Below, piece after piece: positions 1,398 through 29,198 of a DNA stretch of 32,142 nucleotides (position 1 is the first letter of the stretch; the number at the start of each line of letters is the position of its first letter). The stretch is taken from positions 1 through 32,142 of the forward strand of contig SVSY01000012.1 of the NCBI GenBank assembly GCA_015064065.1. Reading direction: 5' to 3'. Below the pieces are notes generated by a model that was not told the origin of the DNA, searched no databases, and saw only the letters and a program-made list of their open reading frames with translations. The translations under genes and the position numbers were made by a program. Source of the DNA: Oscillospiraceae bacterium. GTDB taxonomy: Bacteria > Bacillota > Clostridia > Oscillospirales > CAG-272.

Positions 1398-1650
1398 AAA
1401 AGCCGTCCTATAGAAATAGGACGGACAAATTACCGCGGTACCACCTAAATTCCTGCCGTAAGGCAGACACTCTCGTCTTTTAACGGGGACTTACCGCGCG
1501 CTGCTACACAACCGTAAGGTCTTCACAGAGCGAGCTCCGAAGCGAAAGGCGAGATCTTTACTTGCAACCGCTCACAGCCAAGGCGGTTTTCTCTGAGGCA
1601 AGTGAATAAAGACGTGCCGACTTCATCAATGCTTTTTATTCAACTTAATA
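1398..1650 (-). promoter_or_regulatory. T-box leader (tRNA-Phe responsive presumed) upstream of pheST
   Basis: Minus strand has the T-box core AATTTAGGTGGTACCGCGGTAA, followed by terminator hairpin CCGTCCTAT-TTCT-ATAGGACGG-CTTTTTT (stem 1403..1424) just upstream of pheS. Confidence 0.93.
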
Positions 1651-10318: not shown

Positions 10319-10394
10319 GCACCTTTAGCTCAGTTGGTAGAGCAACTGACTCTTAATCAGTGGGTCCCGGGTTCGAATCCCTGAAGGTGCACCA
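10319..10394 (+). tRNA. tRNA-Lys (anticodon CUU), CCA encoded
   Basis: GCACCTT...AAGGTGC acceptor stem, TAGCTCAGTTGGTAGAGCA D arm, ACTGA-CTCTTAA-TCAGT anticodon arm, TTCGAAT T-loop, terminal ACCA. Confidence 0.97.
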
Positions 10395-10438
10395 TAAAAA
10401 TAAGAGAGACCGATAAAATCGGTCTCTCTTATTTTTAT
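10394..10438 (+). terminator. tRNA-Lys terminator
   Basis: 21-bp perfect stem ATAAAAATAAGAGAGACCGAT-AAA-ATCGGTCTCTCTTATTTTTAT directly abutting the CCA end. Confidence 0.85.
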
Positions 10439-10571
10439 CGCTTCACAAAACGGTTCGAACCCCGCGACGAGACGCAAAGCGTCCGTCGCTAAAGCTTGCG
10501 CTACCGCTGCATAAACGATAATATGGTATTATTGCGCAAGCATAGGGTTCGATATCCCTGAAGCTTAACGA

Positions 10572-10601: not shown

Positions 10602-10735
10602 ATTCGTTCACATAACGATTTGAACCCCGCAACGAGACGCAAAGCGTCCGTTGCTAAAGCTTGCGCTACCACAGCACAGACGATAATATGAAATAAAGGC
10701 GCAAGTATAGGGTTCGAATCCCTGAAAACAGTTCG

Positions 10736-10766: not shown

Positions 10767-10900
10767 TTCGTTCACATAACGATTCGAACCCCGCGACGAG
10801 ACGCAAAGCGTCCGTCGCTAAAGCTTGCGCTACCGTTGCATAAACGATAATATGGCATTATTGCGCAAGCATAGGGTTCGATATCCCTGAAGCTTAACGA

Positions 10901-10931: not shown

Positions 10932-11153
10932 TTCGTTCACATAACGATTCGAACCCCGCGACGAGACGCAAAGCGTCCGTTGCTAAAGCTTGCGCTACCG
11001 CCATACAAACACGGTCTGCCGTTTTTTATTGTTAATAAAACTATTACTGTAATAAAATTTGAAAAATTCTATTCCATTTGATCGAAATATGTGATATAAT
11101 ATATTGAGAATGCTTGATGTGCATAATTTACTTTGTTGAAAGGGAGGAAAGCC

Positions 11154-24696: not shown

Positions 24697-26469
24697 TCAG
24701 TTGGCATCGGGAAATTGGCTGTTATAGAGCGTGGAATAAAATCCGCCCTCTTCAAGCAGTCCTTCGTGCGTGCCTTGCTCGACTATATTGCCGTCTTTCA
24801 TAACTAAGATAACGTCCGACTCTTTTATAGTGGAAAGACGGTGTGCGACGACGAATGCCGTTCGTCCTGCCATAAGCTTTTTGAAGGCCTTTTGTATTCT
24901 TATCTCGGTGCGGGTATCTATCGAAGAGGTCGCTTCATCGAGAATAAGGATCTTAGGCTGTGTAAGCATTATTCTTGCGATACACAAAAGCTGTTTCTGT
25001 CCTTGCGAGAGAATACCGCCGTTCTCACCGATATAGGTCTCATAGCCCATAGGAAGCTTTTTTATAAAGCTGTGCGCGTGTGCGGCTTTTGCTGCGCTGA
25101 TTATCTCTTCGTCGGTAGCATCGGGATTACCAAAGGCGATATTCTCCTTGACGGTTCCGTTACAAAGCCAGGTATCCTGAAGTACCATTCCGTAATTATC
25201 GCGCAGGTCAGCTCTTGGAATGTCTCTTACGTCCTTTCCTCCGAGCAATATAGCTCCATCGTTGACGTCGTAAAATCTCATAAGAAGATTTATCAGCGTC
25301 GTCTTTCCGCACCCCGTAGGACCTACTATTGCGACGTGCTTTCCGTATTCTGCCTTGAAGCTGAAATTCTGTATCAGCGGCTTGTCGGGAGAATACGAGA
25401 AGGAAACGTTTTTAAATTCCACGGTATTAAGACCGTCGAGTGTGGTCGCAGGCGCATCGGGTGTCTGCGAGGGTGCTTCAATAAGCTCGAAAACTCTTCC
25501 CGCGCAAGCGAGCGCGTTCTGAAGCTCGGTAACCACACCTGATATCTCGTTGAAGGGCTTTGTGTATTGTGTCGCGTAAGAAAGGAAGCTTGAGAGCATT
25601 CCGACGCTTATCGCACTGCCGCCCGATATACATATCATAGCGCCCGTAAACGCAACGAGAGTATATACTATACTGTTTACAAAGCGTGTTGAGGGATTTG
25701 TGATAGAAGAGAAGAATATTGCGCGGAGAGATATCTTTCCGAGTCTTTCGTTTATTTCATTGAAGGTCTCGTTGGCCTTATTCTGATAACCGAACGCTAC
25801 GACTGTCTTGTGATCTCCGATCATCTCGTCTATAAGTGCGGTCTGCTCGCTTCGTATCTCGGATTGCTTTTTGAACATTGAAAATGTTCTGTTGGCAATA
25901 AACGCGGCAACAAAAAGCGAGAGCGGTGTGACGAATACGACTATAAGCGTTACTAACGGGCTGATAGTAAACATAAATATCAGCGTTCCGAGTATCGTCA
26001 TTATGCCGTTAAAAAACTGTGTAAATCCAAGCAGAAGTCCGTCGGAGAACTGATCCGAGTCGGCAATAAGTCTGCTTACGATGTCGCCCGAACGGTGAGC
26101 ATCGATATAAGAGACGGGGAAGCTCTGTATCTTTACAAAGGCTTCGTAGCGCACGTTCTTTACCATGCCGTAGACCATACGGTTGTTGAGTACGTTGATA
26201 AGCCACTGAAGTATAGCGGTCAGCGCAACGGATATAGCTATCTTTACAAGTAGGGCAAGGATAGCCGTCATATCGACGTTTCCTTTGCCTATCGCAAGAT
26301 CTATGGCTTTGCCGACAAGGATAGGAACGTAAAGCGTGAGCGCAACGGAAAACGCGGTAAAGAGTAGCGACAGTACGAAATGCACGCGGTAGCGCTTGAG
26401 ATATCTGAGAACTTTAAAGAAGGTATTCACGCTTGTTTTGAGAGATGCTCTGTTTTTAGCTTTCTTCAT
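24697..26469 (-). CDS. ABC exporter half-transporter (TMD-NBD), subunit 2
   Basis: ABC TMD; Walker A GPTGCGKTT, signature LSQGQKQ, Walker B ILILDEATSSID, H-switch AHRLST. Confidence 0.94.
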   Translation of the reverse strand: MKKAKNRASLKTSVNTFFKVLRYLKRYRVHFVLSLLFTAFSVALTLYVPILVGKAIDLAIGKGNVDMTAILALLVKIAISVALTAILQWLINVLNNRMVYGMVKNVRYEAFVKIQSFPVSYIDAHRSGDIVSRLIADSDQFSDGLLLGFTQFFNGIMTILGTLIFMFTISPLVTLIVVFVTPLSLFVAAFIANRTFSMFKKQSEIRSEQTALIDEMIGDHKTVVAFGYQNKANETFNEINERLGKISLRAIFFSSITNPSTRFVNSIVYTLVAFTGAMICISGGSAISVGMLSSFLSYATQYTKPFNEISGVVTELQNALACAGRVFELIEAPSQTPDAPATTLDGLNTVEFKNVSFSYSPDKPLIQNFSFKAEYGKHVAIVGPTGCGKTTLINLLMRFYDVNDGAILLGGKDVRDIPRADLRDNYGMVLQDTWLCNGTVKENIAFGNPDATDEEIISAAKAAHAHSFIKKLPMGYETYIGENGGILSQGQKQLLCIARIMLTQPKILILDEATSSIDTRTEIRIQKAFKKLMAGRTAFVVAHRLSTIKESDVILVMKDGNIVEQGTHEGLLEEGGFYSTLYNSQFPDAN

Positions 26470-28199
26470 TACAGCTCACCCCCTTTTGAAAACTGAGAAT
26501 TATATATCTCGCGGTATATTTCGCAGCTTAGGAGCAATTCGTCGTGCTTGCCCATACCTACGGGAATTCCGTCGTCAAGCACTATAATAAGATCCGCGTG
26601 CATTATTGATGAAGCACGCTGGGAAATAATGAACGTAGTGGGGGCGTGCTCGAGCGCACCGATATTGCGTCTGAGTGCCGCTTCGGTAGCATAGTCGAGA
26701 GCAGAAGCCGAGTCGTCGAGTATGAGTATTTTGGGCTTACGGACAAGCGCTCGCGCGATAGTCAGACGCTGACGCTGACCGCCCGAAAAATTCTTTCCGC
26801 CCTGAAGGACCTCTTCGTCAAGCTTGCCGTCTTTTTGTTCAATGAATTCCTTTGCACAAGCTCCCTCAAGAGCCTCCCAAAGCTCTTCATCGGTAGCATT
26901 TTCATTTCCTACGAGAAGATTGGAACGAACAGTTCCCGCAAAAAGCGTTGCCTTTTGCGGTACGATGCCAAACGTCGAGCAAAGCTCGTCACTTGAGAGA
27001 AGAGAAGCGTTCTTACCGAAAACGAATACGCTGCCTTCGGTCGCGTGATAAAAGCCGGGGATAAGGTTTGCGAGCGTGGATTTACCCGAGCCCGTTCCGC
27101 CTATGATACCGACGGTGTCGCCCGATCTTACTTTGAAGCTGATATCTTTGAGAACGTCATCACCCTCTCCACTCTTGTCATAGCTGAAGCTTACCGAGTC
27201 AAAAACGACGGCGGACGTGTCATCGGCAGACTTTGCAGAGGCGTCAAATTCGATATCCGAGGGGGTGTCAAGAACTTTAGATATTCTCGATGCGCTTGCC
27301 GCCGCTTTGTTGAGCGTTATAATGAGGCTTGCGAGCTTTATGAGCTCTACGAGTATCTGAGAGATATAGTTGTAAAGAGCAACGAGCTCACCTTGCGATA
27401 TAACGCCCGATTCGACTGTGAGCGCGCCGTTGTGGATAAGCACTATAACGGCAAAATTTATGATAGCGTAGGTAAGGGGATTCATAAGAGCCGATATCTT
27501 GCCCGAGAAGAGCTGAAGCTTGTTGAGGTCGTTAACTCTGTTGCCGAACTCATCTATCTCTGCCTGCTCCTTGTTAAATGCGCGGATAACTCGTGTTCCG
27601 TTATAGTTGCCTCTGACCTTGGAGACGACTCCGTCGAGCTTTGCCTGTGTTTTCTTCTGGAGCGATATGTTGATAAGCATAACGCCGAAAACTATGACGG
27701 CAAGTATCACGATAGCTACGGCAAAAATGAGTCCGAGCCAAATATCTATCAGCATCGCGCATATCATCGCACCGAAAACGATAAACGGAGAGCGCATAAA
27801 GAGTCGCAGAAACATATTTACGCCGGTCTGTACCGAGTTTATATCGCTCGTCATTCGGGTTATAAGTGTAGAAGTTCCGAGCTTGTCTGTGACCGAGTAG
27901 CTGAAGCTTTGTATCTTTTCAAAAAGAGCGGAGCGAAGTTTTGTTGCAAATCCTACTGCCGCACGTGCCGCAAAGAATTGTGCACAGATAGCGCTGACAA
28001 GTCCTACAATACCGAGGAGCAACATAAAACCGCACGCACGCCATATAACACCCGTGTCGTTTCCGTTTATTCCTTTGTCAATTATGATAGAGACAGCAAC
28101 AGGAACAAGAAGCTCGAAGATAGCTTCAAGCATTTTGAACGTCGGAGCGAGGATAGACTCCTTTTTGTAATCCTTCAAAAAAATTAAAAGCCTTTTCAA
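26469..28199 (-). CDS. ABC exporter half-transporter (TMD-NBD), subunit 1
   Basis: ABC TMD; Walker A GGTGSGKST, signature FSGGQRQ, Walker B ILILDDSASALD; stop overlaps the next start (TAATG). Confidence 0.94.
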   Translation of the reverse strand: MKRLLIFLKDYKKESILAPTFKMLEAIFELLVPVAVSIIIDKGINGNDTGVIWRACGFMLLLGIVGLVSAICAQFFAARAAVGFATKLRSALFEKIQSFSYSVTDKLGTSTLITRMTSDINSVQTGVNMFLRLFMRSPFIVFGAMICAMLIDIWLGLIFAVAIVILAVIVFGVMLINISLQKKTQAKLDGVVSKVRGNYNGTRVIRAFNKEQAEIDEFGNRVNDLNKLQLFSGKISALMNPLTYAIINFAVIVLIHNGALTVESGVISQGELVALYNYISQILVELIKLASLIITLNKAAASASRISKVLDTPSDIEFDASAKSADDTSAVVFDSVSFSYDKSGEGDDVLKDISFKVRSGDTVGIIGGTGSGKSTLANLIPGFYHATEGSVFVFGKNASLLSSDELCSTFGIVPQKATLFAGTVRSNLLVGNENATDEELWEALEGACAKEFIEQKDGKLDEEVLQGGKNFSGGQRQRLTIARALVRKPKILILDDSASALDYATEAALRRNIGALEHAPTTFIISQRASSIMHADLIIVLDDGIPVGMGKHDELLLSCEIYREIYNSQFSKGGEL

Positions 28200-28370: not shown

Positions 28371-28748
28371 TTATTTACGAGTTCCATCCTCGTTAAATGT
28401 TTTTTTCAATGCAGCTTCTGTAGGAAAAATAGAAATTGTCAATACGACTAACTGAAGTATGGAAATGATTGATCCAATTATTACAACAACATCTTCGCTA
28501 CTATTGAAAGAAGGAATTTGTGCCACAACAGATGGAATCAAAGAAAACCACCCAATCTTCCACCAAAGTTTTCCGCAATAATTATGAGCAAATTTCCAAG
28601 TATCTATATTTTTCATTGAACGACTTGTTCTATACCCATATACTGAATTTATTTTTTGAGGACAATGTTTCCACATCATTCTTCCGGCAATTATTAAAAC
28701 AACAGGAATCAGCAGGTTACATACAAACATAAACCACCAAAACCACAT
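28371..28748 (-). CDS. SdpI-family-like membrane protein
   Basis: ATG at 28748 (MWFWWFMFVCNLLIPVVLIIAGRMMWKHCPQKINSVYGYRTSRSMKNIDTWKFAHNYCGKLWWKIG) with RBS GGAGGTAATATCT; NSVYGYRTSRSMKNxDTWxFA matches the SdpI-type motif. Confidence 0.85.
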   Translation of the reverse strand: MWFWWFMFVCNLLIPVVLIIAGRMMWKHCPQKINSVYGYRTSRSMKNIDTWKFAHNYCGKLWWKIGWFSLIPSVVAQIPSFNSSEDVVVIIGSIISILQLVVLTISIFPTEAALKKTFNEDGTRK

Positions 28749-28804
28749 AGATATTACCTCCGTCAAATTCAAGTTTTTTATAGTACACAACCTTTCTTGC
28801 TTAA

Positions 28805-28832: not shown

Positions 28833-28886
28833 TGCTTATTGGCGAAAAAGCGTAGCTTTGGGGATCTTATCTTTAATAGATCGTCA

Positions 28887-28940
28887 CCAAAACAAAAACG
28901 GACGTCGTTGACGTCGATATTATGGAGAGAAAGACAATTG
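28887..28940 (-). repeat. Degenerate copy of tRNA-Val 3' tail plus terminator
   Basis: CCAAAACAAAAACGGACGTC at 28887 is identical to the terminator arm at 29082 (195 bp apart); adjacent GACAATTGG matches the tRNA-Val 3' end. Confidence 0.75.
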
Positions 28941-29081
28941 GCATTTGCAATTCTTTGCGTTCCGCTAAGAATTGCAATATTCCGCGCCTTGCCGCTTACA
29001 AGCGAGCTTGACGCGCTCTTCGGCGGAAATGCGAACCAAATTCGCGCTTTGCGCGAGTTGTTTCGTTCAAATAAATCTCTG

Positions 29082-29124
29082 CCAAAACAAAAACGGACGT
29101 CAACGACGTCCGTTTTTGTTTTGG
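29082..29124 (-). terminator. tRNA-Val terminator
   Basis: 20-bp perfect stem CCAAAACAAAAACGGACGTC-AAC-GACGTCCGTTTTTGTTTTGG, overlapping the encoded CCA. Confidence 0.85.
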
Positions 29125-29198
29125 TGGAGACAATTGGGATCGAACCAATGACCTCATGCATGTCAAGCATGCACTCTAACCAGCTGAGCTATGCCTCC
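29122..29198 (-). tRNA. tRNA-Val (anticodon GAC), CCA encoded
   Basis: Minus strand GGAGGCATAGCTCAGCTGGTTAGAGTGCATGCTTGACATGCATGAGGTCATTGGTTCGATCCCAATTGTCTCCACCA; anticodon arm CATGC-TTGACAT-GCATG. Confidence 0.97.

Follow-up and report, generated by a model that had tools for sequence, protein, structure and literature searches.

Behind the 3′ ends of tRNA genes (and of tmRNA), the genome of an Oscillospiraceae bacterium and those of related gut Clostridia probably harbor mobile elements that form an integron-like cassette system anchored at tRNAs. Reading outward from the tRNA, a unit of this system is composed of the CCA, a first terminator, the acceptor and T arm in inverted copy, a structured core, the T arm and acceptor end once more in direct orientation, and a second terminator. 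Two examples are found in the window, i.e., the whole stretch of 32,142 nucleotides analyzed, one behind tRNA-Val and the other behind tRNA-Lys (Table 1).

Table 1. Coordinates of the features discussed (positions refer to the window unless a locus is named).
Feature	Position	Strand	Remarks
T-box leader	1414-1638	-	RF00230, 98.3 bits
tRNA-Lys(CTT)	10319..10394	+	anchor of the second array
Terminator 1, Lys array	10394..10438	+	perfect 21-bp palindrome
Type-1 core, copy 1	10457..10551	+	three-way junction GAACCCC-HP1-HP2-GGGTTCG
Type-1 core, copy 2	10622..10716	+	
Type-1 core, copy 3	10786..10880	+	
Type-1 core, copy 4	10950..11003	+	truncated
ABC transporter gene	26469..28199	-	right flank; adjoins tRNA-Val in relatives without the unit
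SdpI/YfhL-family gene	28371..28790	-	probable cargo; PF13630, E 2.3e-20
Promoter of the SdpI/YfhL gene	28832-28827, 28810-28805	-	TTGACA, TATAAT
Second terminator copy	28885..28915	-	5′ A-rich arm lost
Direct copy of the tRNA 3′ end	28922..28941	-	decayed; CCAATTGTCTTTCTCTCCAT
HP3	28943..28978	-	hairpin TTGCAATTCTT..AAGAATTGCAA
HP2	28979..29031	-	type-2 core hairpin, CATTTCC..TCAAGCTCGCTTG..GGAAT
T-arm 5′ strand copy	29032..29040	-	TTTGGTTCG, immediately before the core
HP1	29042..29057	-	apex hairpin, CTCGCGC AAA GCGCGA
P′	29058..29083	-	decayed inverted copy of the acceptor/T arm
Terminator 1, Val unit	29082..29124	-	perfect 20-bp palindrome, 3-nt loop, from the tRNA CCA (29124) to TGG (29082)
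tRNA-Val(GAC)	29122..29198	-	anchor of the Val unit
PF05635 gene	L294:2688-3047		
PF05635 gene	L295:1349-1705		
PF05635 gene	L060:1844-2194		
PF05635 gene	L024:5-346		
PF05635 genes, further loci	L066, L068, L142, L242, L019, L298		
RtcB-type RNA ligase gene	L294:5277-6449		array cargo

A preliminary description of the window had noted that tRNA-Val ends in a 20-bp terminator stem, which is indeed a perfect palindrome, and that two hairpins follow, CGCGC-AAA-GCGCG (about 29056-29042) and TTGCAATTCTT/AAGAATTGCAA (28945-28977), both of which are present. The first of these, HP1, varies more than any other part of the unit. The inverted copy P′ is clearer in relatives, the version of L056 being TGGTGACGATCTATTCGATCGAAACAA. 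The second terminator and the decayed tRNA tail that had been described about 195 bp further on are both there, but the terminator lacks its 5′ AAAACAAAAACG arm, with GACGTC-AAC-GACGTC and a T-run as its remnant, and the tail copy by itself lies within chance (score of 21, against 23 for the best of 100 shuffles). The second terminator region is a 41-nt copy (28875-28915) with 80% identity, 195 bp beyond the first, and the tail copy (13 nt at 28932-28944, 92% identity, spacing of 196) is in register with it. Because of this register, and because the same arrangement is present in three close relatives (L056-L058), the tail copy is secure.

The layout is not particular to these two tRNAs. Inspection of the DNA behind all 36 tRNAs of this genome (a 2.07-Mb metagenome-assembled genome [MAG], 82% complete) found it, by our count, at about 17 of the roughly 25 tRNAs that could be assessed, in agreement with the general process that the preliminary description had suspected. 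An occupied tRNA is followed first by a terminator and then by its own 3′ end in inverted form; a structured core comes next, succeeded by a direct copy of the tail and, in many cases, another terminator. Copies of the own tail score above all 100 shuffles at 13 tRNAs or more (Lys twice, His, Gly, Pro twice, Trp, Glu, Arg-CCG, and five Leu). In a comparison of four genomes, a tRNA may be occupied in one and its ortholog empty in another. Occupied tRNAs mostly carry perfect terminator palindromes of 17-22 bp and their comparable empty orthologs shorter stems (21-22 versus 10 bp for His, 19 versus 9 for Leu-TAA, 18-19 versus 3-10 for Leu-TAG, and 18-19 versus 4 for Arg-CCG), with exceptions that include Glu-TTC and Pro-CGG in this genome. 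From this contrast, the terminator probably arrives together with the element. Many G000 contigs stop within a few hundred base pairs of a tRNA (e.g., C11, C20, C81, C99, C124, C125, and C127), and repeat units probably break the assembly at these ends.

Empty sites are also found for tRNA-Val. The gene upstream of this tRNA is conserved, at 79-82% DNA identity, among its three nearest relatives. In three members of the genus without the unit, the ABC transporter gene begins 75-139 nt past tRNA-Val, against about 920 nt in the window, and the extra DNA consists of the unit and an SdpI-family gene. Because of this difference, the window probably carries a one-gene cassette at tRNA-Val.

Several mutually unrelated cores occupy the same position within the units. 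Type 1 is a three-way junction, GAACC-HP1-HP2-GGTTC, found behind tRNAs Lys, His, Gly, Leu, and Arg-CCG. Type 2 lies within the T loop of the copied tail (GGTTCG^CAT..AAGCTCGCTTG..^AATCC) and is found behind Val, Pro, Cys, Glu, Gln, Ser, Met, Thr, and Arg-CCT. Type 3 is a series of hairpins separated by short repeats. The Lys array of the window is made of three and a half tandem type-1 units of 165 bp. A fragment of a type-1 Lys array also lies beside an aminopeptidase-like gene in L046 (G000:C108:15694-17525), with no tRNA in view and the contig end near. The preliminary description had regarded the Lys and Val spacers as related and a GCAAAGC-apex hairpin as common to both. Alignment of the Val and Lys cores gives no match, so the two belong to different families and the AAA apex is incidental. 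Nor did the 80-odd named type-2 loci yield any type-1 core, and the folded elements have no match in Rfam. Of that earlier interpretation, the insertion process at tRNA 3′ ends is supported by the recurrence, the empty sites, and the cargo genes between units (see following), and the shared apex hallmark is not supported.

The units match the tRNA behind which they lie. Across 47 type-2 units, the local tRNA gives the best fit among 14 tails to the direct copy in 34 cases (p about 6e-29) and to the inverted copy in 27 (p about 3e-19), values that are overstated because the units are related and the counts treat them as independent. The inverted copy is best preserved in L222, L216, L184, and L198. 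In the type-2 HP2, 97.5% of cells are paired, versus 84.3% in shuffled data and at most 49% when slid, and there are 88 double changes versus 27 in shuffles; its apex is invariant and its internal loop conserved. This covariation shows selection on a folded strand, which may be RNA or single-stranded DNA and may be either of the two strands. Wobble pairs in HP2 lean towards A-C, and those of the inverted and direct arms are even (GT 63, AC 55).

The type-2 (Val-type) core has a narrow distribution. A pattern scan of 84,980 species genomes returned 99 stretches, nearly all in MAGs of gut Clostridia/Oscillospiraceae, many of them ruminant, and about 95 copies lie in such related MAGs. At least three outlier matches (Chloroflexaceae, Lokiarchaeota, and Bradyrhizobium) look like chance. 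Among 96 copies examined, 64 are located at most 1.2 kb 3′ of a tRNA on the same strand, mostly at 73-121 bp. One copy lies behind tmRNA. Many copies without a nearby tRNA are close to contig or locus ends; all the genomes are MAGs, and arrays fall at contig ends. A search of 394 genomes of the order gave matches only in the window's own family. Within the genus, 12 of 24 genomes match a slightly looser pattern, and the other 12 lack a match.

Genes are found between units in several arrays. In this genome, C124-C18 (two contigs joined by a 31-nt overlap inside ORF1) has tRNA-Cys followed by a core, ORF1, a core, ORF2, a core, and ORF3, with near-identical cores. ORF1 is present in 6 of 295 genomes of the family, with an identity of 98% to the copy in another genus and of 92% to that in a second; in L296, it lies behind tRNA-Gln instead of tRNA-Cys. 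In L294, more than ten genes lie behind tRNA-Cys, all on the strand of the tRNA, with five copies of the end site GGCATCTTTTTTGTCAAC, and a new, long hairpin of the terminator kind comes after four of these. The genes of these larger ORF1 arrays (L294 and L296) are mostly without assigned function and include members of the RtcB and SUFU families. Several small genes lie behind tRNA-Gln in L213, with a repeated T-loop-like end site, an AlwI-like restriction-modification pair lies between units in L202, and an AbiL-like pair lies between tRNA-Met and a unit in L148. Few gene-bearing arrays are bounded by type-2 cores on both sides (C124-C18, L202, and L213), and the genes directly 3′ of type-2 cores are, with the exception of one pair, not clearly common to different loci.

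As in integrons, there are co-oriented arrays of small genes separated by structured, near-repeated sites (C124-C18, L213, and L294), units with and without genes, and horizontal exchange of single array genes. In contrast with integrons, the anchor is the 3′ end of a tRNA instead of attI, the arms copy the local tRNA, and each cassette opens with a terminator. IntI was not found where checked: on TIGR02249 (cut-off of 265), this genome's own XerC/D-like protein scores 83.7 bits and a second recombinase 49.8, in MAGs that are incomplete. The attC core GTTRRRY is also absent, since by eye neither the T-loop site (GTTCGAA/GTTCGCA) nor the cassette end (GTCAAC, reverse GTTGACA) fits it. In the reading favored here, the system would work like an integron without being one, as judged from the lack of IntI and of GTTRRRY in these tests. 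The open-access literature gave no description of tRNA-downstream repeats, tRNA-targeted miniature inverted-repeat elements, tRNA cassettes, or S23-tRNA links that matches it.

Genomic islands and CIMEs targeted to tRNA or tmRNA share with these units the insertion at 3′ ends, the tandem arrays, the absence of a recombinase gene from the element, and a far boundary marked by a direct repeat of the tRNA 3′ end, a hallmark of such islands that is present here. The strongest rival explanation is ordinary tandem accretion, in which integrase islands (IMEs/CIMEs) would insert at the T or anticodon loop by means of double-stranded att sites, the units being eroded ends and the hairpins terminators. 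Such tandem islands, bounded by repeats of the ssrA 3′ end, are known in Dehalococcoides (PMC3146451), and accretion clearly also happens in this lineage: in L174, the tRNA-Arg tail, from the anticodon loop onward, is directly repeated over 42 nt around a single lipoprotein gene, and the island of L172 encodes a tyrosine integrase and has a tail copy that likewise extends into the anticodon loop. However, the units differ from islands in their size (165-800 bp), in lying behind most tRNAs of a genome, and in having conserved folded cores and inverted copies of the own tail. Accretion predicts neither an inverted copy matched to each tRNA nor strongly covarying cores common to different tRNAs, and it does not predict that perfect terminators of 17-22 bp should occur mostly at occupied sites, or that there should be gene-free arrays of 165-bp units. 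As an account of the whole, it is unlikely.

The covariation, the invariant apex, and the conserved internal loop of HP2, together with the location of the units downstream of transcribed genes, would also be expected if the folded elements were functional RNAs, for example regulators or elements of tRNA 3′ processing or termination, that spread by gene conversion beside incidental neighbors. Against this stand their patchiness among close relatives (half of the 24 genus genomes have no type-2 match), their absence from orthologous tRNAs, the unrelated cores in the same position, and the lack of an Rfam match, and we regard it as improbable. Least probable of all is an origin without any mobile element, in which template switching (fold-back synthesis) at the terminator palindrome would produce the inverted copy, and the tail and terminator would be duplicated locally by slippage or unequal crossing-over: it accounts for the single long palindrome that terminator and inverted copy form from each tRNA and for near-identical tandem units, but the same core behind many different tRNAs and in several genera already strains it, and units flanking different genes, an ORF1 that is 98% identical across genera, and empty sites in relatives speak against it.

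The enzyme of a cassette system would act in trans. Tyrosine recombinases are few: the sole one found in the carriers G006 and G022 is XerC/D-like, and this protein is also present in relatives where no type-2 core was found. In each of eight genomes of the genus (L245-L252), a conserved XerC/D-like recombinase, about 335-357 aa long, occurs once, and a second Xer was not seen. An integrase occurs in L172 only among the inspected loci, and in none of the units. For the carriers G000 and G022, a Y1 (HUH) transposase was rejected as common driver, with none in G000, G022, and G010 and fragments or weak matches in G006 and G007, as was a reverse transcriptase (of a retron or group II intron), with none in G000, G006, G007, and G022. 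Palindromes of the REP type or derived from IS200-IS605 are likewise small hairpin elements without genes of their own, but here three carriers have no Y1 transposase, and the units have no shared ends independent of the tRNA.

Another candidate is the protein associated with intervening sequences of 23S rRNA (S23/IVP; PF05635, E 6.5e-28). In ten loci, a tRNA is followed by its gene at a distance of 235-471 nt, positions that account for only about 4.5% of the DNA examined, in a sample biased towards tRNAs since many loci were chosen for carrying one. This gene is often the first cargo gene, has one further copy as a later cassette, and is not in every unit. PF05635 genes usually come after a hairpin series between short repeats, e.g., ATGATGT or GTGAAAT. 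Intervening sequences of 23S rRNA have inverted-repeat ends that form extended stem-loops within a stable-RNA gene, and some carry this four-helix protein (PMC4990558). The units share with them the association with stable-RNA genes, the inverted repeats and stem-loops, and, in some, the protein. They differ in lying behind tRNAs instead of inside a helix of 23S rRNA, in forming arrays, and in carrying other genes.

Under the cassette reading, insertion would be a site-specific recombination with a folded single strand as its substrate, as with the attC of integrons. A cassette would open right after the CCA with a perfect-palindrome terminator, followed by a folded element made of the inverted copy of that tRNA's T arm and acceptor and a core of two or three hairpins, and optionally by cargo, a single gene or a small number of genes that bring a promoter of their own. 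Its end would stand in for the tRNA tail, so that the tRNA is left intact and the next cassette can start likewise. Repeated insertion and unequal exchange between copies would then produce the arrays, with empty units (Lys), one gene (Val with SdpI), or many genes as outcomes. A more specific version, in which the tRNA is a platform, the stems of the folded single-stranded sites are copies of the local tRNA, and a non-integrase factor, possibly the S23/IVP four-helix protein, drives capture, is offered as a tentative possibility that we hold to be considerably less probable than the cassette system itself.

Since units sit behind most tRNAs, some in arrays with different genes between them, tRNA genes appear as docking points. 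If the cassette reading is true, an abundant gut lineage acquires genes and stores them in arrays behind its tRNA genes, and the genes so stored would include a restriction-modification pair and an abortive-infection-type pair. As arrays of near-identical units probably break assemblies at tRNA genes, such loci are likely to be under-reported in MAGs. The system would also give a handle on the origin of folded attachment sites and on the movement of 23S rRNA intervening sequences and S23 proteins; gene capture driven by S23/IVP, if true, would explain the movement of these rRNA sequences as well.
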